Source: Phytoamicus setariae (GTDB lineage Bacteria > Pseudomonadota > Alphaproteobacteria > Rhizobiales > Rhizobiaceae). Taken from it: a stretch of 64,000 nucleotides of DNA. The notes under the pieces were generated by a model that was given only the letters and a program-made list of their open reading frames with translations, made no database searches and was not told the DNA's origin. Both the position numbers and the translations under genes were made by a program. The stretch lies in contig NZ_JAEQNC010000007.1 of assembly GCF_016722925.1 (NCBI RefSeq), positions 1 to 64,000 on the forward strand, in the 5' to 3' direction. Positions 6,827 to 48,673 of this stretch are shown here, one piece after another. Numbering within the stretch: the first letter of the stretch is position 1; the number at the start of each line of letters is the position of its first letter.

Positions 6827-7180
6827 TCACGGACAGCGATGATCCCTCAATGCATCGATCGCCGGCTTGCAAATGTCCGGGCTGCCGCCGCAGCAATCCT
6901 GCATAAGATAGCCAAGCAAACCACGCATGGCACTCATCTCGACGAAGTAGCGGATGTTGCGACCTTCGCGCTGCGAGGTGATCAGATTGGCGCATGAAAG
7001 CACGGTCAGATGGGCCGACAACGTGTTGGGCTTGAGTTCGAGAGCACAGGCGATCTCGCCTGCATTCAGCCCAGCCCCGCCAGCGCCTACCAGCAACCGA
7101 AACACATCTAGCCGGCCCTCGTGAGAGAGCGCGGTCAATTTGCTGAGTGCGGGTGCCTTTTCCATAGTTCCTGTGTTCAT
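6827..7180 (-). CDS. ArsR-family transcriptional regulator
   Basis: 117-residue winged helix-turn-helix repressor of the ArsR/SmtB type. The DNA-binding region spans about residues 15-75 (ALSHEGRLDVFRLLV, then ALELKPNTLSAHLTVL as recognition segment, then the wing SQREGRNIRYF). The tail carries a cysteine group DCCGGSPDICKP (Cys96, Cys97, Cys104) and a last Cys116, which could bind arsenite or another soft metal. No arsenic or metal-efflux gene is adjacent, so the target is unclear. The ATG at 7180 is preceded by GGCGAGATC; a second ATG at 7165 is possible. A near-perfect palindrome just upstream (7194-7216) suggests autoregulation. It is divergent from the exported protein at 7348. Confidence 0.85.
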   Translation of the reverse strand: MNTGTMEKAPALSKLTALSHEGRLDVFRLLVGAGGAGLNAGEIACALELKPNTLSAHLTVLSCANLITSQREGRNIRYFVEMSAMRGLLGYLMQDCCGGSPDICKPAIDALRDHRCP

Positions 7181-7193
7181 GATCTCGCCGGAA

Positions 7194-7216
7194 ATTCAAA
7201 TGAAGCTTCATTGAAT
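7194..7216. promoter_or_regulatory. Imperfect palindrome, probable ArsR operator
   Basis: The arms ATTCAAATGAAG and CTTCATTGAAT face each other with one extra A in the left arm. AT-rich imperfect palindromes of this size are typical of ArsR/SmtB sites, and it lies 14 nt upstream of the arsR start, between two divergent genes. Confidence 0.55.
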
Positions 7217-7347
7217 CACGCCTAAGAATTCATATAGTGGCTAAAATGCCACATTGCACCCTGTTCGAAAATAAAATTTGGCTTCGTAGCAGATTTGATT
7301 TCATACGTTGAATCGTCTCCAGTCCAACGACATTCCGGAGGAAAACG

Positions 7348-8589
7348 ATGTTCGGGCGCCTTTTATTCACATCATTCATATTGCTTGCCCTTGCTGCCAA
7401 CGCAAATGCTGAGAACGCGCAGGCCGAGCCCTCCTTTTTAGGGCTTGGAACACCGATCACCTGGAAGATGAACGAACTGCCGGCATCCTATAGCATATAT
7501 GATAGTACGGGGCGCGGCTGGGAAGTGGCGTTGGAAGCCACGAAGACGCCCGAAGGCAATCTCAAAGCCCTGACGCTGACGGCATCGTCCGAACAGATCG
7601 AGCCGGTCTCTCTCACAATGGACGTGGAGTTCGGTGCTCCCGACGGCACGCTTGCCGGATATGAATTCGACCCTGGCACGCCGACCTTCATAGTCACCAA
7701 TTACTCCATGGGTGCGCATTGCTGCACGATGGCCAGGGCGCTTACATTCGACGACGTAAAGCTGGTACCGGTGGATGTCGGCGATTTCGACGGCTCGGCC
7801 CTGTCCATTCGCGACCTGGATAATGATGGCACAGTCGAGATCGATTCTGTCGACCAACGTTTCCTCTACGCGTTCGACTCCTATGCAATGTCACTGGCTG
7901 CGCGGAAGATCATGAAAATACGGGGCGTCAGCATCGACGATGTAACCGCCGACCCCCCATACGAGACCTATCTGATCAGCCAGATCACCAAATACGAGAA
8001 CGAATGCTACAACGGCACCTCAGCGGGTCTCTGCGCAGGTTTGCTGGGGACAGCGGCAAAGGTGGGTCTGTATAGCAGCATTGCATCGCGCGTTCCGTTC
8101 AAGGCGATCGACGCGGCGATGGAGAAAACCTACCTGGAATGCAGTGCGGAGGATTGCGGTCAGCAGAAAATGTTCGGCAATTTCCGCGAGGCCGTCGAGT
8201 CTCGCCTCAAGAGCTGGAACTACAACACAACATCCTCGATGAACGACCGTGTCCGCGATTACTTTCGTACGCTCGCGTCATACAGGAAGGGCTTTGGCTC
8301 CCCCAGCAAGGACCAGGAATCTCCATGCGCCTATGCCCCGGTCAAGTTCAGCATGAACAAGGACGAAACCTTTGTTCACGTCGAGGGACAGGAATATACC
8401 TGCCGTGTCGAGCGCGTGAACACCCTCGGCAATGCCGCTGTCGGGCTAGGACTTTGCACGAGCGAAGGGGAAAACTATTCCACGCTGCTTGCCATGGAGC
8501 TGAAGAATGACACGCTCTACATGAATTCCATCTTCAACGGAGGCGTCTACTCCAACCGTGAGCCGGCTATCCTGCCAGCCTGTCGCTGA
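7348..8589 (+). CDS. Exported protein of unknown function
   Basis: 413-residue protein that I do not recognise. A clear Sec signal (MFGRLLFTSFILLALAANANA) predicts a periplasmic or outer location. The mature part has a cysteine pair in GAHCCTMARAL near residue 125, an Asp-rich calcium-type loop (DLDNDGTVEI, near residue 155) and several more cysteines in the second half (ENECYNGTSAGLCAGLL, YLECSAEDCGQQ), which suggests disulfide bonds. The Asp loop looks like an FG-GAP or EF-type site but does not repeat. It is divergent from arsR and could share its operator. No neighbour indicates its job. Confidence 0.6.
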   Translation: MFGRLLFTSFILLALAANANAENAQAEPSFLGLGTPITWKMNELPASYSIYDSTGRGWEVALEATKTPEGNLKALTLTASSEQIEPVSLTMDVEFGAPDGTLAGYEFDPGTPTFIVTNYSMGAHCCTMARALTFDDVKLVPVDVGDFDGSALSIRDLDNDGTVEIDSVDQRFLYAFDSYAMSLAARKIMKIRGVSIDDVTADPPYETYLISQITKYENECYNGTSAGLCAGLLGTAAKVGLYSSIASRVPFKAIDAAMEKTYLECSAEDCGQQKMFGNFREAVESRLKSWNYNTTSSMNDRVRDYFRTLASYRKGFGSPSKDQESPCAYAPVKFSMNKDETFVHVEGQEYTCRVERVNTLGNAAVGLGLCTSEGENYSTLLAMELKNDTLYMNSIFNGGVYSNREPAILPACR

Positions 8590-8606
8590 CGCGAATAGTC
8601 ACCGCA

Positions 8607-8639
8607 AAACAAATATGACTATTATAGTCACGTTTGTTT
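8607..8639. promoter_or_regulatory. Nested inverted repeat upstream of fumC
   Basis: An inner palindrome, GACTAT-T-ATAGTC (8617-8629), sits inside outer arms AAACAAA (8607-8613) and TTTGTTT (8633-8639). It lies 81 nt before the fumC start and just after the stop of the upstream gene. It could be a weak terminator for that gene or an operator for fumC. Confidence 0.4.
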
Positions 8640-8719
8640 CCGCGGGAGGTTTTCAATGGTGCAAATGACGCCTAGAGTTCTCAGGAAAAATCTTGTGTCC
8701 TCTAGCGGAGACGACCGAC

Positions 8720-10108
8720 ATGACCACGCGCACCGAAACCGACACCTTTGGCCCCATCGAGGTCGATGACACCAGATACTGGGGCGCGCAGGCCGAACGG
8801 TCGCTGGCAAACTTCAAGATCGGCTGGGAACGGCAACCGCTGTCCGTCGTCCGGGCGCTCGGCATCGTCAAACAGGCGGCAGCACGCGCCAACATCGCAC
8901 TTGGCCAGTTGGATGATACGGTCGGCCATGCAATCATTCAGTCGGCGCAGGAGGTCATCGACGGCAAGCTCAACGAGCATTTTCCGCTGGTGGTCTGGCA
9001 GACGGGTTCCGGCACGCAGTCCAACATGAATGCCAACGAGGTGATCTCCAACCGGGCGATCGAGATGCTGGGCGGCGTCAAGGGCTCGAAGAAGCCGGTT
9101 CATCCGAACGATCACGTCAATATGAGCCAATCGTCCAATGATACCTATCCGACGGCCATGCATATCGCCTGCGCCGAACAGATCGTGCACCATCTGATTC
9201 CGGCCCTCAGGCACCTGCATACGGCACTTGAGGAAAAGGTTCACGCCTTTGCCGCCATCATCAAGATCGGCCGGACGCACACGCAGGATGCCACGCCGCT
9301 GACGCTCGGCCAGGAATTTTCGGGCTATTCGGCGCAGGTCGCATCCGCCATCAAGCGGATCGAACTGACGCTGCCAGGCCTCTACGAACTCGCACAAGGC
9401 GGCACCGCCGTCGGCACGGGTTTGAATGCGCCTGTCGGCTTTGCCAAGAAGGTCGCCCACGAAATTGCCGACATCACCCACCTGCCCTTCGTCACCGCCC
9501 CCAACAAGTTCGAGGCGCTGGCAGCGCATGACGCGATGGTGTTCGCCCATGGCGCGATCAATGCCGCCGCAGCCGCCCTGTTCAAGATTGCCAACGACAT
9601 CCGCTTTTTGGGCTCCGGGCCGCGCGCGGGCCTCGGCGAGCTGGCACTGCCGGAAAACGAGCCCGGCTCATCGATCATGCCGGGCAAGGTCAACCCCACC
9701 CAATCCGAGGCGCTGACCCAGGTTTGCGCGCACATTTTCGGCAACAACGCCGCCATCACCTTCGCCGGCAGCCAGGGCCATTTCGAACTGAACGTCTACA
9801 ATCCGATGATGGCCTACAATTTCCTCCAGTCGGTGCAGTTGCTCGGCGATGCCGCCCGCTCGTTTACCGACAATTGCGTCGTCGGCATCGAAGCCCGCAC
9901 CGACAATATTAAGGCCGGGCTCGACCGCTCCCTGATGCTGGTGACCGCGCTAGCGCCGATCATCGGTTATGACAACGCCGCCAAGATCGCCAAGACCGCC
10001 CACAAGAACGGCACGACGCTAAAGCACGAGGCGCTCGCCAGCGGGCTGGTGACCGAGGCCCAGTATGACGAGGTTGTGCGTCCCGAACTGATGATCGGGC
10101 CGCGATAG
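8720..10108 (+). CDS. fumC: Class II fumarate hydratase
   Basis: Iron-independent fumarase of the citric acid cycle, converting fumarate to malate; homotetramer in the cytoplasm. The 462-residue product shows the superfamily signature [13 protein letters not shown] near residue 316, the active-site segments [14 protein letters not shown] and [13 protein letters not shown], and [17 protein letters not shown] chose the ATG at 8720 because GGAG lies about 10 nt upstream; an in-frame TTG at 8693 would add nine residues and fits the family less well. A nested inverted repeat precedes it. A second, unrelated class I fumarase is encoded at 12591. Confidence 0.95.
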
Positions 10109-10155
10109 AAAGGACAACGGCCATCGCTGTGCAGGCCCAGCAATCGGCAACTGTT

Positions 10156-10199
10156 TCCGATTACGTATAGCGCGCCTCCGATTATGTGCAGCATGCGCC
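10156..10199. repeat. Two imperfect copies of a 21-23 bp repeat
   Basis: TCCGATTACGTATAGCGCGCC (minus its last base in the common core) is followed directly by a variant that reads TCCGATTATGTGCAGCATG before GCGCC. They lie between fumC and the serine hydrolase gene and may affect its promoter. A chance tandem duplication is equally possible. Confidence 0.35.
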
Positions 10200-10266
10200 T
10201 CCGTCGCAACCAATGATCCGTCAGCCTCTCAAGCAGGGGTCGGGAACAAATACGATGGAGGACTGC

Positions 10267-12033
10267 ATGCTGCGACGAACCACCCTCGCCCTTTCGATCT
10301 GCTGCTCTATTCTCGCCGCTCAAGGCGCCGATGCAGCCGGGCGAACGCTGCTGCGCATGGCCGATATCGCCGAGCCGGTGCGGGCGCACGCGCTGATCGA
10401 CAACAGTGCGTTCTTGCCGCCGGCTGACGCGCAGGTCGCACATGAGGCGTTCTCGGGCACGCTGGGGATCGGCGAAGCACCGATGTTCACCATTCCGGTG
10501 GAGTTCAAGAGCGACCAGGTGCTGGGCAAGGACCCGCAGCTGTTTCCGGGTGTCGCCCTTTCATTCGTCAGCATTGGCGACAACCTGGTACCGCAAACCC
10601 AGGACATCATCCGCAACGGCAGCTTGGGCGGCGGCCGCAGCTTCTGGGACATCATCGTCCAGCCCGGCAAGGTCTGGTCTGAAGCCACCGACGATGGCTG
10701 GTCGCGCGCCTCCTTTCCTTTCTCGCTGATGAACTCGATCGAAGGCGAGACGCACAATGGCGTCGCAACTTTCCTTTACAAGGGCACGCAGGTCTCGAGG
10801 ATCCGCTACCAGATCCTCACCCAGACATCGCCGTTTTATGTCGAGGATTATTTTACCGCCTCGGGTGCGTTGGAGGCCGCATACAAGCCCGGCAAACTGC
10901 TCGAGGAAGCTTCGATCAAAGCCACCTACGAGACGTCGCAAGCCGTAGCCGAGAAAATCCTGCCGTGGTCTGAGCTGGAGAAGAAATTCGGCAAGGACAA
11001 GCTCGCCGGTTTCGACAGCAAGATCCGCCCGGCCGAAATCGTGCTTGATGGACTTTCCATCGACGACAGTTTCTACCTCAAGTCCTGTCCGACGCCAGTA
11101 GGCGAACTGCCCTTTTGCGACCGCCAGCGATTCGGTGTCTGGTCGGTGACCAAATCTGCCGGCAATACCGCCGCCATGCTGGCGATCGCCGAAAAATATG
11201 GCCCTGAAATCTTCGACACCAGGCTCGTCGATTACATCACCGAAGCCAGGGATGCGCCCGGCTGGAAAGACGTGACCTTCGGCGATGCGCTCAACATGGC
11301 CACCGGCATGGGCAATGGCTCGGACAAGGCAACACCCGCAGCAATCTCCGACCCATTGGGCAAGGCCTACTACGCCTGGTACGAAGCACGCACCACCAAG
11401 GACAAGATCGACGCCTTGCTGAAGGGGGCCAAACCCTACCCGTGGGGTCCGGGCAAGGTGGCGCGCTATCGCGACGAGGACATGTTCCTGCTCGGGGTCG
11501 CCATGACACGCTATCTGCAGTCGAAGGAAGGTCCCGCAGCCAATGTCTGGGATTTCCTCAAGCGGGAAGTCTACCAGCCGATCGGCATCTCCTATGCGCC
11601 GATCAACAAGACGATCGAGGCCGATCCGAAGCAGGACCAGCCGCTGATGGCCTACGGCTTCTATCCAACCATCGGCGACCTGATCAAGATCGCCCGGCTC
11701 TACCAGAACGGCGGCAAGTTCCAAGGCAGGCAGATCTTCAATGCGCAGAGGCTTGCTGACCTCATGCCCGCCAAACAGGCCGTGGGATTGGCGACCGGCA
11801 ATCCGGAAAAACCCGAATATTATAAGGCTTTCTGGCGTTCGTCCTACAAGGCCGCAAGCGGCTGCACGTTCAGTTTCCCGATTATGGACGGCTGGGGGGA
11901 AAACTATGTGCTGCTGCTGCCGAAGGACGTGACAGTCTTCCGCCTCGCCAAGAACTGGGACGGCGATGCCGGCGCGGGCGAGCTCGGCAACATGACCGCG
12001 GTGGCGGGCAGGCTGAAGGACCTCTGCGACTAA
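10267..12033 (+). CDS. Exported serine hydrolase, beta-lactamase/PBP-like fold
   Basis: 588-residue protein with a Sec signal (MLRRTTLALSICCSILAAQGADA) and a C-terminal serine-hydrolase domain related to class C beta-lactamases. The probable nucleophile is the serine of SVTK (about residue 293), an SxxK motif in the context FGVWSVTKSAGNTAAM. A YRDEDMFLLG segment about 120 residues later may supply the tyrosine of the YxN position, although the Asn is replaced. The first 280 residues are not recognised. GGAGG at 10257-10261 lies five bases before the ATG at 10267 and decides this start over 10186 or 10255. Substrate unknown. It stands between two fumarase genes without an obvious functional link. 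Confidence 0.7.
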   Translation: MLRRTTLALSICCSILAAQGADAAGRTLLRMADIAEPVRAHALIDNSAFLPPADAQVAHEAFSGTLGIGEAPMFTIPVEFKSDQVLGKDPQLFPGVALSFVSIGDNLVPQTQDIIRNGSLGGGRSFWDIIVQPGKVWSEATDDGWSRASFPFSLMNSIEGETHNGVATFLYKGTQVSRIRYQILTQTSPFYVEDYFTASGALEAAYKPGKLLEEASIKATYETSQAVAEKILPWSELEKKFGKDKLAGFDSKIRPAEIVLDGLSIDDSFYLKSCPTPVGELPFCDRQRFGVWSVTKSAGNTAAMLAIAEKYGPEIFDTRLVDYITEARDAPGWKDVTFGDALNMATGMGNGSDKATPAAISDPLGKAYYAWYEARTTKDKIDALLKGAKPYPWGPGKVARYRDEDMFLLGVAMTRYLQSKEGPAANVWDFLKREVYQPIGISYAPINKTIEADPKQDQPLMAYGFYPTIGDLIKIARLYQNGGKFQGRQIFNAQRLADLMPAKQAVGLATGNPEKPEYYKAFWRSSYKAASGCTFSFPIMDGWGENYVLLLPKDVTVFRLAKNWDGDAGAGELGNMTAVAGRLKDLCD

Positions 12034-42851: not shown

Positions 42852-45242
<2,391 letters not shown>

Positions 45243-45601
45243 GGTCGCCTCCCTTCAATCTCCGCGCTAAATTTACACAATGCTAAAATACCGCAAGTAC
45301 GTTACGGTAACATTGCGCGAGGTTGCGCTGAGTTTGCTAATTCCGATGGCCAGTAAGGCCATGTGGGGACATTTAGCTGCCCGATTTCCCTTCGCCCCTA
45401 CAACCACTCCCGTTTCCGCCCCAGGATACGCCTCGTGGCGTTGTGGCAAGACGAAGCCGGTGCCTTCGCTTGCGGCAAGGGCGCAAACCATTTTGCCATG
45501 CGAGCAATGGCGACCTCAATGGCGACCGCTTTCGTGAAAAACACAGCGTTTGGCGCGGTCAGTATGTTATACAATCGCGGAGGTCTCAAAGGAGCCGAAG
45601 C
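45243..45601. other. Intergenic region between the first sulfatase and the LssY_C leader peptide
   Basis: No convincing gene. It should hold the minus-strand sulfatase promoter, including the 22-bp element at 45293-45314, and the plus-strand promoter for the leader peptide and LssY_C gene, perhaps around GTTATACAAT at 45566-45575. Confidence 0.5.
45293..45314. promoter_or_regulatory. Shared operator copy 1, upstream of the first sulfatase
   Basis: A 22-bp sequence identical to 48418-48439, with the core GTACGTTACGGTAAC. The GTTAC / GTAAC arms around one G form an inverted repeat like TetR-type operators. It begins 50 nt upstream of the sulfatase start. Confidence 0.65.
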
Positions 45602-45652
45602 ATGCACGCCCGCATCGAAGCTTTTAGTACGTCGCTCGCGGATCACTCCTGA
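45602..45652 (+). CDS. Possible 16-residue leader peptide coupled to the LssY_C gene
   Basis: AAAGGAG (45588-45594) lies seven bases before an ATG that opens the frame MHARIEAFSTSLADHS. Its TGA (45650-45652) overlaps the ATG of the next gene as TGATG. The LssY_C start itself lacks a ribosome binding site, so this peptide may drive its translation by coupling. It is also possible that a longer in-frame start upstream (from 45443) is used. No function in the peptide itself is recognised. Confidence 0.4.
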   Translation: MHARIEAFSTSLADHS

Positions 45653-46383
45653 TGGCGTGGCGATCCGGCACACGACCTCGGTCGAAAGCACGCATTGTAA
45701 TCAGCGGTGTGATGGCGCTGCTGATTGCATATCTGTTGGTGGCCTATTTCTTCATTCCCGAAATATGGATCCTTCGCGATGCTGGCCGCGTTTCCGACTA
45801 TGGCAGCATGGTCACCACCACCGAGCAGGACATTGCCGGCGACCCCATCAATGTCGGTCTTGTCGGTTCGAAGGAACAGCTGATCCGGGGATTTGCTGCG
45901 GCCGGATGGGATCCCGCCGACAAGATCACCTTACGCAGCTCGGCCGACATCGGATTGAGCGTCGTGCTGGACCGACCGGACCTCGATGCTCCGGTCAGCC
46001 CCCTGTTCTATGAGGGCCGCAAGCAGGATCTGGCATTCGAGAAGGCCGTTGGTAAAAGTGCGGACCAACGCAACCATGTGCGGTTCTGGATGACCGACAA
46101 GACGGGTCCGGATGGACGTCCTCTCTGGCTTGGTTCTGCGAGTTTCGACCGTGGCGTCGGCTTCAGCCATGATACCGGTCAGGTCACCCACCACATCGGT
46201 CCCGATGTCGATGCCGAGCGCAATCTGATGATCGGCAACCTTCTGGAAGCCGGGCAGCTTTCAACGACATATGAGATCGCCGGTATCGGAGCCACCAAGA
46301 CGGGGCGCAATGGGGGCGGTGATCCCTACTTCACCGATGGAAAAGCACTGATCGGCGTGCTCCGCATTCCGCCCTCTCCCTAG
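45652..46383 (+). CDS. LssY C-terminal-domain membrane protein
   Basis: 243-residue protein with one N-terminal membrane segment (ISGVMALLIAYLLVAYFFI, about residues 17-35) and a domain that resembles the C-terminal part of LssY, a family named after a Legionella secretion-associated protein. Typical segments are INVGLVGSKEQLIRGFAAAGW, NHVRFWMTDKTGPDGRPLW, SASFDRGVGFSHDTG and DVDAERNLM. The function of the domain is unknown. The ATG overlaps the stop of the short upstream frame and has no own ribosome binding site. It is placed between two convergent/divergent sulfatase genes and ends at a shared hairpin. Confidence 0.7.
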   Translation: MAWRSGTRPRSKARIVISGVMALLIAYLLVAYFFIPEIWILRDAGRVSDYGSMVTTTEQDIAGDPINVGLVGSKEQLIRGFAAAGWDPADKITLRSSADIGLSVVLDRPDLDAPVSPLFYEGRKQDLAFEKAVGKSADQRNHVRFWMTDKTGPDGRPLWLGSASFDRGVGFSHDTGQVTHHIGPDVDAERNLMIGNLLEAGQLSTTYEIAGIGATKTGRNGGGDPYFTDGKALIGVLRIPPSP

Positions 46384-46458
46384 GGCGCGCGTTGCGCGCA
46401 GTCATGGTCCGACGGCATCAGCAACCCCAGGCGACACGTTTTCTTCTATTCAGCCATT

Positions 46459-46484
46459 GAAGGTGCCGCCTCCGCGGCACCTTC
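46459..46484. terminator. Bidirectional hairpin between the LssY_C and second sulfatase genes
   Basis: GAAGGTGCCGC, loop CTCC, GCGGCACCTTC: an 11-bp perfect stem between convergent genes that end at 46383 and 46502. It probably stops transcripts from both sides. Confidence 0.7.
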
Positions 46485-46501
46485 GTTCCCGGTCTTGCTT
46501 G

Positions 46502-48211
46502 TCAGTTTCCGGTTGGCATCGGGAGGTCAATGCCACCCTTGCCAAGTTGGTCCCTGACCCATTCGAACTGTTGATACTTGGAGATTTCGATCGGGCCCGT
46601 GTAAGTCTCGCTCTGCAACTTGCGCGGCGGATACTCGATATAGGTCTTCATCAGATCCTTGATGGCAGCGCTGATGGTGACCATCGTCCAGGTCCGCTCG
46701 GTGTAGTTGTTCATGAAGATGTCATAGCGCTCTTGCGGATCCTGCCAAAGATCGAACACCTGCGGTACGGTCGCGACATATTTCGTCGCACCCTTCCATC
46801 CGAGGTTGCTATCGACTGCCAGGCCTCCCGTTTCCTGCCCATTGTCGCCGCGCAAATTGAAGACGGCTTTGTAGTTTCCCACGCGGGCAGCGCCCGGCGA
46901 GAGCTCGTTCTCGGTAAAATAGAACCAGGACGTCCGTTCCGACTTGCCCGTTCCGCGCAGGATCGGTGACATGTCATAGCTGTCGAACATCATCGGCTTG
47001 CCTTCGCGGTCCTTGTCTGGCAAGGCGACACCGGCGACCGAAGCAAATGTCGCCATCAGGTCAAGCCCGCCGACGATATCGTGGTTCTTGGAAGCCGGCT
47101 TGATCTTGCCAGGCCAGACCGCAAGCGCCGGAACGCGATTGCCGCCTTCGCGCACAGTTCCCTTGGTGCCTCTGAACGGCGTGTAGCCCGCATCCGGATA
47201 GACATCCTGCCAGGCGCCATTGTCCGTCGTGTAGAAAACCAGGGTATTCTTATCTTTACCGGTTTCACGCAGCTTGTCCATGATCCGGCCGATGCGCGTG
47301 TCGAGCTCGACGATGCTGTCGGCATACTTGGATTTAGACATCGACTTGTGCTCGAACTCCGGCGCCGGCATGTTGGGCTGGTGCACCTTCATGAAGTTGA
47401 CGTCGATGAAGAATGGCTTGTCGGATTTGGCTGCCTCGTCGAGAAAGCCGATGGCCGCCTTTTCGACATAGCTGTCGAAATAGGGGATGCCGACGACGCC
47501 CGACGCGCCGTTGACTTCTGGCGTATCGACGTATTGACCGTTAATCTTGAACTCCTCTACGGCCTTTTCGCCTGCCTTACCCGAAAGCGCACCCTTGGTC
47601 ACCTTCTGGAACATGGCCCGCAGTTTGGGATCCATGTCAGGAAACCACGTCGGGTCCGCATAGGTGTAGGCGTTAAGGTGATAGAGCCCGACATATTTCA
47701 TTTCGTCGAAGCCCTGCGCGTTCGGAAGGGCATAGTCCGCCTCGCCCAGATGCCATTTGCCGGTGAAGTATGTCTGGTAGCCGCCAAGCTTCAGGACCGA
47801 ACCGAGTGTCCACTCGGCGGCCGGCAAGCCGCCACCCTGCCCCTGAAAGGCGACTGTCGTCATGCCACTGCGGTTCGGAATACGGCCCGTCAGCATCGCC
47901 GCACGGCCCGGCGTGCAGCTTGGCTGGGCATAGAAGGAGTAAAACGTCATCCCCTCGTCAGCAAGCCTGTCAATGTTGGGCGTGGGCATTCCCCGCCCCT
48001 CGCCACCGCCATATGGTCCGAGATCGCCGTAACCGGTATCATCAGACACGATCAGAAGAATATTTGGCTGGCTGGACTGCGCGTATGCAACGCTGCTCGT
48101 CAGCGAAACGGTTGCCATCATCGCAAGGCCGGTGGCCATAAGCGTCATCCGCGCCGTGCTTTTCAGCGCGCCTCCGGGCCATGGCTTTTGAAGTTCTGCG
48201 TCATGAATCAT
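46502..48211 (-). CDS. Arylsulfatase-family sulfatase, exported
   Basis: 569-residue sulfatase with an N-terminal hydrophobic signal (LMATGLAMMATVSLTSSVAYA, about residues 24-44). The formylglycine motif is QPSCTPGRAAMLTGRIP near residue 107, followed by a metal-binding ILLIVSDDTGYGDLGPYGG-type N-terminal region (near residue 52) and VFYTTDNGAWQDV in the middle. GAGGAGG upstream sets the ATG at 48211. It differs from the sulfatase at 42852 in length and motif type (CTPGR, not CSPTR), so they are not recent duplicates. A copy of the shared 22-bp element lies 206 nt upstream. A formylglycine-generating enzyme is not in the window. Confidence 0.85.
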   Translation of the reverse strand: MIHDAELQKPWPGGALKSTARMTLMATGLAMMATVSLTSSVAYAQSSQPNILLIVSDDTGYGDLGPYGGGEGRGMPTPNIDRLADEGMTFYSFYAQPSCTPGRAAMLTGRIPNRSGMTTVAFQGQGGGLPAAEWTLGSVLKLGGYQTYFTGKWHLGEADYALPNAQGFDEMKYVGLYHLNAYTYADPTWFPDMDPKLRAMFQKVTKGALSGKAGEKAVEEFKINGQYVDTPEVNGASGVVGIPYFDSYVEKAAIGFLDEAAKSDKPFFIDVNFMKVHQPNMPAPEFEHKSMSKSKYADSIVELDTRIGRIMDKLRETGKDKNTLVFYTTDNGAWQDVYPDAGYTPFRGTKGTVREGGNRVPALAVWPGKIKPASKNHDIVGGLDLMATFASVAGVALPDKDREGKPMMFDSYDMSPILRGTGKSERTSWFYFTENELSPGAARVGNYKAVFNLRGDNGQETGGLAVDSNLGWKGATKYVATVPQVFDLWQDPQERYDIFMNNYTERTWTMVTISAAIKDLMKTYIEYPPRKLQSETYTGPIEISKYQQFEWVRDQLGKGGIDLPMPTGN

Positions 48212-48673
48212 TGTCAGTCCTCCTCAAAAGGTTGATGCGACTGCTCATGAAAGCGTGAAATAGCGAGGCTTGTGGATTGAATACCGACCCGCGAATATGC
48301 AGTTTGAATTCAAGCAACGACCTCGGCCCAACGCCAGGTATGACGGCTACAGACACACGCGTAGCGAACCATCCGACCGGTCATACGTTACGCGTAGACC
48401 AACATTTTAGAACTCTCGCAAGTACGTTACGGTAACATTAACGGCTGTGAGACAGAGCCCAACCACATCTGACATTCCTGAAGTCACTTAGGCGGCAATC
48501 GTCCGACTGCCTTGATCCGGAAGTGATTTCCGCTTGAGAAACCCAGACAAGATTTCCTGGCCGCCGGTACGTCCCGGCTCAAAATCTGACCTTCGCAACT
48601 TGCCCCCTTGGCAACGGCGAAGAACCGGGGCAGGCTCTGTGACGGCATCTCAAAACTTCGCTGGAGTGCGCCC
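48212..48673. other. Intergenic region upstream of the second sulfatase
   Basis: No convincing gene. It carries the second copy of the 22-bp element (48418-48439) and a nearby relative, ATACGTTACGCGTAG at 48384-48398. Towards 48674 the sequence should contain the promoter of the next plus-strand gene. Confidence 0.5.
48418..48439. promoter_or_regulatory. Shared operator copy 2, upstream of the second sulfatase
   Basis: Identical over 22 bp to 45293-45314, in the same orientation relative to the minus-strand sulfatase gene that follows. Core GTACGTTACGGTAAC. Confidence 0.65.

Follow-up and report, generated by a model that had tools for sequence, protein, structure and literature searches.

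The DNA analysed here is a stretch of 64,000 nucleotides from Phytoamicus setariae (Rhizobiaceae), hereafter called the window, which constitutes C35:1-64000 of a genome assembly of 5,608,031 bases. It contains two sulfatase genes on the minus strand, each preceded by a copy of the same short sequence element. Sulfatase gene 1 (42852-45242, 796 amino acids) and sulfatase gene 2 (46502-48211, 569 amino acids) both match PF00884 (E-values of 6e-56 and 8e-49, respectively), the second with an additional Sulfatase_C match, and they carry the Cys-type active-site motifs CSPTR and CTPGR. The repeated stretch, CGCAAGTACGTTACGGTAACATT, is identical at 45292-45314 and 48417-48439, which places it 50 bp upstream of the start of the gene 1 open reading frame (ORF) and 206 bp upstream of that of gene 2. 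Both copies lie on the minus strand and read ATGTTACCGTAACGTACTTGC in gene direction, at 45293-45313 and 48418-48438. The preliminary description of this DNA had reported an identical 22-bp palindromic element ahead of two differing minus-strand sulfatases. The element and its placement were found as described, with the repeat extending to 23 bp, one base longer than claimed; the label of palindrome applies to the GTTAC-G-GTAAC core, the only perfect palindrome inside the repeat, and not to the 22-mer as a whole. A near homologue of sulfatase gene 2 (1153 bits) in another genome, G003, is likewise preceded by a copy of the motif. The plus strand between the two genes of the window carries an ORF with an LssY_C domain (PF14067; 45652-46383).

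Searching the window for the 15-mer core with up to three mismatches returned only two matches, both exact and both belonging to the repeat, although at this loose setting 4 of 100 shuffles also reached two matches. With a scoring matrix built from 214 sites of other genomes, both copies reached 31.5 bits, while the next-best position in the window scored -1.1. The repeat is not due to chance. A third, weaker relative that had been proposed at 48384 scored -18.7 and is not a site. The matrix, as well as the base composition, the target groups and the G/T labels mentioned below, rests on a best-match count (214 copies, weaker copies being skipped).

Across the whole genome, the 15-mer ACGTTACGGTAACAT has five exact copies, and with up to three mismatches it gave 75 matches against 99 for the reversed control. 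Because the 15-mer was swamped by background at this setting, the pattern was extended to AAGTACGTWACSGTWACAT, for which there were nine exact copies, 13 at up to two mismatches and 20 at up to three, with six for the reversed control. The form with one extra base, AAGTAACGTWACSGTWACAT, contributes two further exact copies, and these, together with the 13 copies at up to two mismatches, are the 15 strong copies referred to hereafter. The exact 23-mer gave no match in a scan of genome_contigs. In gene direction, the sites of this genome read ATGTTACCGTWACGT(T)ACTTG with minor variations.

Of the 15 strong copies, 12 precede and face a first gene that could be assigned with Pfam. Their targets comprise four sulfatases (two in the window, the others on C23 and C34), the gene of the sulfatase-maturing formylglycine-generating enzyme (FGE) and a small ORF followed by a larger gene, REG, on C23, DUF1254/1214 genes on C12, C1 and C36, a DUF992 gene on C12, a DUF2092 gene followed by a DUF3300 gene on C32, and a gene for a Cys-rich protein followed by an OmpA-family gene on C1. 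Weaker copies precede two more sulfatase genes (C12, C6) and one DUF1254 gene (C33). The genome contains 17 PF00884, three PF03781 and 11 PF06863 genes; the motif heads six of the first (four at strong and two at weaker copies) and one of the second, the FGE, while four motif-headed gene groups, weaker copies included, contain seven of the 11 DUF1254 genes. Hypergeometric estimates of 5e-12 for six of 17 sulfatases and 2e-8 for four of 11 DUF1254 genes are indicative only, as they assume 5600 genes and 18 sites and the weaker sites were chosen knowing their genes. The earlier proposal of a sulfatase regulon with its regulator encoded elsewhere is supported in so far as sulfatases are included and a candidate regulator lies on another contig; the regulon is also wider than sulfatases, taking in FGE, DUF1254/1214, DUF992, DUF2092/3300 and other proteins. 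That the element is a dispersed repeat of no regulatory role, as its several identical copies might suggest, is scarcely credible given that copies keep their position and orientation before genes and recur at the same gene families in different places and across genera; random or intragenic spread was not what the genome-wide search found.

Some neighbouring features were noted in passing. On C36, a weak match to the motif lies between a second gene with an FGE domain (C36:245409-246223) and a gene for a regulator of the CRP family; the latter gene was considered as a candidate and set aside, as the site has three mismatches in 19 positions and does not face it, and the arrangement is probably due to chance. 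In the P. setariae genome a BatD-domain gene ends immediately ahead of one strong copy, and in several genomes the motif is followed by genes for ATPases of the MoxR type (L160:4823-5794, L224, L231, L036:6417-7748).

REG is a protein of 608 amino acids encoded on a different contig from the window (C23:479132-480958). Within the sequence of its locus (L031), the FGE gene (6941-7927, minus strand; PF03781, E-value 3e-76) is followed by the small ORF (8398-8664, plus strand; 88 amino acids) and then by REG itself (8803-10629, plus strand), which is thus divergent from FGE. Three motif copies (C23:478330, 478485 and 478595) lie between FGE and the divergent small ORF and REG, two of which face FGE. 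A distant REG paralogue on C2 has neither the motif nor the small ORF within the 19 kb read.

The distribution of the motif was compared with that of REG in 151 genomes, counting motif matches with at most one mismatch as strict and protein matches above 250 bits as orthologs. The strict motif was present in four genomes, namely that of P. setariae (G000) with 11 matches, G003 with six, G041 with three and G079 with one. The reversed pattern gave one match each in four other genomes (G042, G047, G083, G085), so that the lone match in G079 is meaningless by number; it sits 0.7 kb from the REG ortholog of that genome. Full-length REG orthologs were found in five genomes (G000, G003, G041, G037, G079), which include all four with the strict motif (Fisher p = 2.4e-7). 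When G000, the source of the motif, is left out, three of three strict-motif genomes fall within the four of 150 that hold an ortholog (p about 7e-6). The fifth ortholog genome, G037, has five motif copies by a wider pattern, whereas none of the 48 other genomes holding weaker members of the REG family has the strict motif. In G003, G079 and G037, the last two from the same family as the window's genome, a motif copy precedes the small ORF adjoining REG, and a copy also stands at FGE (strict in G003, weaker in the other two). In G041, FGE adjoins REG, and motif copies precede the small ORF and other genes.

This narrow distribution also bears on the ChvG-ChvI two-component system, an envelope-related system of the same bacterial group whose box the motif might conceivably be, given the envelope-related targets. 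We regard this as having a negligible probability: in the part of PMC9731502 available, ChvGI is described as conserved in alphaproteobacteria, in contrast to a strict motif found in only 4 of 151 genomes, and the consensus sequences given there, N-GCC-N8-GCC for Sinorhizobium meliloti and TTGC-N3-GCAA for Caulobacter, do not match the motif when compared by eye. The CenR-type repeat AGTCAC..GTGACT, as it appears in the accessible portion of PMC9561847, was also considered and does not match.

A wider search was seeded with an alignment of these five orthologs, 32-39% identical to the first, and the best 80 of 108 relatives were taken as named loci, so nearer relatives are over-represented among them. 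They span Rhizobium, Ensifer/Sinorhizobium, Phyllobacterium, Mesorhizobium, Agrobacterium, Ochrobactrum/Brucella haematophila and others. At up to two mismatches the motif occurs 250 times in 72 of the 80 loci (one match for the reversed control), and at up to one mismatch 175 times in 66 loci (none for the control). The locus stretches contain FGE in 59 cases, a sulfatase in 31 and DUF1254 in 12, and the conserved small ORF of about 90 amino acids is present in 73, being absent from L121, L125, L139, L152, L181, L183 and L189. The first ORF could be read after 244 of the 250 copies and was most often the small ORF (54) or FGE (49), followed by sulfatase (19), REG (13), DUF1254 (5) and DUF2092, DUF3300 and Cys-rich proteins (one each). 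The remaining 101 are other ORFs, representatives of which matched PF13557 (outer-membrane-type), OpuAC, SH3, MscS channel, MoxR ATPase and DUF202 families in Pfam. In one locus, L172, REG, the motif and a sulfatase occur together as in rhizobia although the label is that of an Acidobacteriaceae metagenome-assembled genome; misbinning of the contig or a transfer is the probable reason.

Ten whole genomes that each hold an ortholog were scanned with TKTWACNGTWRCGTACTTNC at up to one mismatch, which gave 65 matches in nine of them and none in the ten for the reversed pattern; the tenth, A. bohemicum (L141), had no match. Among 30 sites read from these genomes, 16 could be given a first gene and 14 are unassigned. 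The first gene is a sulfatase at L218, L232, L233, L234 and L242, FGE at L226, L227 and L243, DUF1254 at L236, L241, L244 and L247, DUF3300 at L235 and the small ORF at L220, L228 and L240; a further site read separately (L219) received no first-gene assignment. Homologues of sulfatase gene 2 in S. meliloti 1021 and R. leguminosarum ATCC 14479 (L196, L197) lack the core motif in the 9.6 kb covered for each, and the R. leguminosarum homologue is flanked by a kinase and response regulators. A histidine kinase gene beside the sulfatase of L035 was considered and set aside, with no response-regulator partner seen by eye among the adjoining ORFs.

The consensus that emerges, TKTWACNGTWRCGTACTTnC, is directional, with ACTTnC at the likely -35 position. 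In the 213 distinct sites used for the flanks, which were chosen by pattern and are therefore biased at their inner positions, the second base after ACTT is C in 78%, while A (52%) and T (61%) are favoured at positions 40 and 44, where a -10 element would fall given ACTTnC as -35 and a spacer of 17 bp. Together, the fixed direction and the -35-like ACTTnC suggest an activator that would contact RNA polymerase at -35, which goes from position to mechanism by inference. The same directionality, with the motif a short way ahead of start codons in the larger target groups, would also be expected of a promoter for an alternative sigma factor of the extracytoplasmic function (ECF) type. This is very unlikely, since such a promoter should consist of two separate blocks, and the conserved part of the motif runs unbroken for about 18 bp, with only a weak -10-like signal following after another 17 bp; moreover, no sigma-factor gene was found among the annotated proteins, which cover a subset of the targets, and the motif tracks REG orthologs.

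Less probable still is the TetR-type operator of the preliminary description. Its attraction is the palindromic GTTAC-G-GTAAC core, along with the often symmetric TGTWACNGTWACA sites of a sister REG clade. However, the GTWAC arms form inverted repeats in 152 of the 250 sites but direct repeats in the other 98, direct arms also occur in 7 of the 14 15-mer sites of the P. setariae genome with at most one mismatch, and the flank is asymmetric. No TetR-family match was found among 38 proteins of this genome scanned near sites or in the window, which include some of the neighbours only, and the protein that co-occurs with the motif is not a TetR protein but is predicted to be membrane-anchored and CadC-like. 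With a directional consensus and ACTTnC at the likely -35, the motif is better explained as the site of an activator than as an operator of the TetR type. In the sister REG group (L117, L129, L141, L144, L155), paired TGTWACNGTWACA sites 32-44 bp apart precede the small ORF and REG, which suggests that the flank of the site changed between REG groups. A comparison of the motif base G/T with head residues of REG for covariation was confounded by phylogeny and was not used.

The architecture of REG was derived from sequence searches and structure prediction. Two of the 80 loci lack a start codon (L173, L181) and two offer only short ORFs (L190, L195), leaving 76 orthologs, of which 53 and 42 were picked for diversity in alignments A3 and A4. 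No Pfam family matched REG significantly, TPR models reaching E 0.1 or worse, and NCBIfam gave a single weak match, which covers the repeats (E 0.002); neither scan showed a receiver domain. An AlphaFold2 model of the ortholog from Phyllobacterium brassicacearum (L123), built on a 53-row alignment, reached a mean pLDDT of 86 and a pTM of 0.69. It predicts a head of four helices (17-29, 37-51, 60-66, 81-100) and a beta hairpin (106-121), a membrane helix (153-176), an alpha/beta region (180-291) and helical repeats (297-573); the head modelled alone (pLDDT 88.5) shows the same elements. Compared by hhalign with 20 PF00486 domains (OmpR-type winged helix-turn-helix) of the P. setariae genome, the head aligned over 57 columns in register (Prob 54%, E 1.3e-4), and a rerun with simpler settings gave 17%, versus 0.08-3.0% for 12 column shuffles and 0.8% when reversed. 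A winged-helix-like DNA-binding fold is thus predicted with borderline support. In a scan of residues from about 120 to 260, a hydrophobic 19-mer was present in 52 of 53 orthologs, that of the P. setariae protein being LLFLVTTLVAALTLVSAAA at residue 170. Foldseek of the whole model retrieved TPR proteins and entries for the CadC periplasmic domain (3ly9, 3lya, 3ly8 and 3ly7 at ranks 2, 5, 12 and 21; 323-327 columns, E 2.3e-5 to 2.0e-4). A cysteine pair is invariant in 53 of 53 orthologs and comprises the only two cysteines of the P. setariae protein, C352 and C374; by the predicted secondary structure they sit on adjacent helices at similar distances from the turn, which makes a disulfide plausible.

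The computed motif, its targets and its linkage to REG are strong results. From them, we consider it likely that the motif is an activation site bound directly by REG, which would be a membrane-anchored one-component regulator. A number of observations weigh against this. The head of REG matches no Pfam or NCBIfam DNA-binding model and no PDB sequence, and Foldseek of the head model found no PDB fold at E <0.001 (best 2.7). Against CadC, Foldseek gives low TM-scores (0.22-0.43), and TPR proteins of a generic kind score similarly. A cytoplasmic head should go with more charge on its side of the membrane stretch, and this holds in only 35 of 53 orthologs, so that the orientation is weakly supported. 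Eight of the 80 loci lack the motif (L121, L125, L139, L141, L152, L183, L189, L195), of which L141 and L195 carry TGTWACNGTWACA, the L195 site lying 86 bp ahead of a sulfatase match. That an ORF comes next is hardly specific to the motif: it does so after 244 of 250 copies, after 211 of 250 when the other direction is read, and at 1774 of 2000 places chosen at random. In the P. setariae genome, 11 of the 17 sulfatase-family genes have no assigned motif, and three strong copies have no assigned target (C36:228728, C23:113771 and C23:102839, the last of which points away from the C23 sulfatase). Finally, in G041 some 13 kb separate REG, which has no good site directly upstream, from the small ORF and the cluster of motif copies (L111/L112), and in the 80 loci the small ORF tracks the motif as tightly as REG does.

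These last two points bring in the main rival, that the small protein binds the motif or is required for binding. In its strongest form, another protein travelling with REG would bind the motif, most plausibly the small protein of about 90 amino acids alone, with REG as a member of the regulon or a modulator. Six of the seven loci without the small ORF are also motif-less, and in G041 it is the small ORF, not REG, that accompanies the motif cluster. Against this, the one representative of the small protein that was scanned has no Pfam match, the small protein is unlike the OmpR-type winged helix-turn-helix profile (0.16%), and the DNA-binding-like head belongs to REG; we therefore consider it rather unlikely. 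A joint complex of REG and the small protein would fit all observations, and the product of the small ORF is possibly a co-factor.

All six motif-headed sulfatases are of the Cys type (CxPxR or CxAxR), three of them with CTAGR and not the canonical CxPxR. The cysteine pair of FGE is also kept, with GGSHLCAPNYCRRYR aligned to GGSFLCHESYCNRYR of the solved FGE 6s07; the aligned cysteines are presumably the catalytic ones. In both respects the set is like an FGE with type I sulfatases. Many of the target proteins start with an apparent signal peptide, as judged by eye. The regulon covers a subset, since the motif is missing ahead of at least two further sulfatases of the Cys type (L042:2365-4077, L031:80-1738). 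The literature examined, including the part of PMC11500405 that was available, named no transcription factor for FGE together with its sulfatases.

We propose that REG, with its ToxR/CadC-like architecture, encoded after the small ORF and divergently from FGE, would act as follows. Its periplasmic part, of alpha/beta and TPR-like structure with the invariant cysteine pair, may sense a signal from the envelope or the periplasm. The winged-helix-like head in the cytoplasm, tethered by a single transmembrane helix, would bind the consensus over the -35 region, and bound REG would recruit RNA polymerase. Cys-type sulfatases and FGE would then be switched on together, along with DUF1254/1214 and other proteins and REG's own operon, and FGE would turn the cysteine of the sulfatases into formylglycine. 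The parts of this model that we infer are that REG itself binds the DNA, that it activates and does not repress, what it senses and what the small protein does.

The closest known counterpart may be CadC of Escherichia coli, which, like the predicted REG, has a DNA-binding-like head, one transmembrane helix and an alpha/beta part with helical repeats. Both have a cysteine pair in that last part (Cys208/Cys272 in CadC, where the disulfide supports the inactive state at pH 7.6, according to the portion of PMC3096576 available), and CadC is an activator, as REG probably is. In contrast, the head of REG has no PF00486 match and its model lacks the N-terminal beta-sheet present in CadC, and CadC prefers AT-rich DNA with few specific contacts (both from the accessible text of PMC5430869), while the REG site is a consensus of about 18 bp at many promoters. 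The cysteines of REG are 22 residues apart and those of CadC 64, REG has a partner ORF of about 90 amino acids, and its targets are sulfatases and FGE where that of CadC is lysine decarboxylase. ToxR/ToxS and VtrA/VtrC are likewise membrane one-component regulators encoded with a small partner protein, but the small ORF of REG is upstream, and neither a signal peptide nor a membrane stretch was obvious in it by eye. ChvG-ChvI shares with the REG regulon its envelope-related character and bacterial group but differs as a two-component system with another binding consensus.

The titles and abstract openings returned by a literature search with letter forms of the motif held nothing on rhizobial regulation, and no description of the motif or regulator appeared in what was covered of the open-licence PMC literature. 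Tentatively, it is quite possible that REG and its partner form an undescribed branch of membrane one-component regulators in Rhizobiaceae and relatives, with a DNA-binding family of their own that is absent from Pfam and a site of about 18 bp at many promoters. Such regulators would coordinate FGE, a post-translational maturase, with the sulfatases on which it acts, perhaps by way of a thiol switch in the periplasm, and the small protein would be a partner required for DNA binding or assembly. REG homologues occur in 53 of the 151 genomes, many of them matching over the head only, and these relatives, at 23-51% identity, make up a large uncharacterised set of probable membrane regulators; the site of one member therefore opens this larger set. 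If the proposal is true, it would name, for rhizobia and their relatives, a regulator and an operator of sulfatases and of the enzyme that activates them, both specific and open to testing, and would assign a binding site to proteins that are listed as 'hypothetical protein' or left unannotated in plasmid records. It would also suggest a shared physiological role for the DUF1254/1214, DUF992, DUF2092 and DUF3300 proteins.

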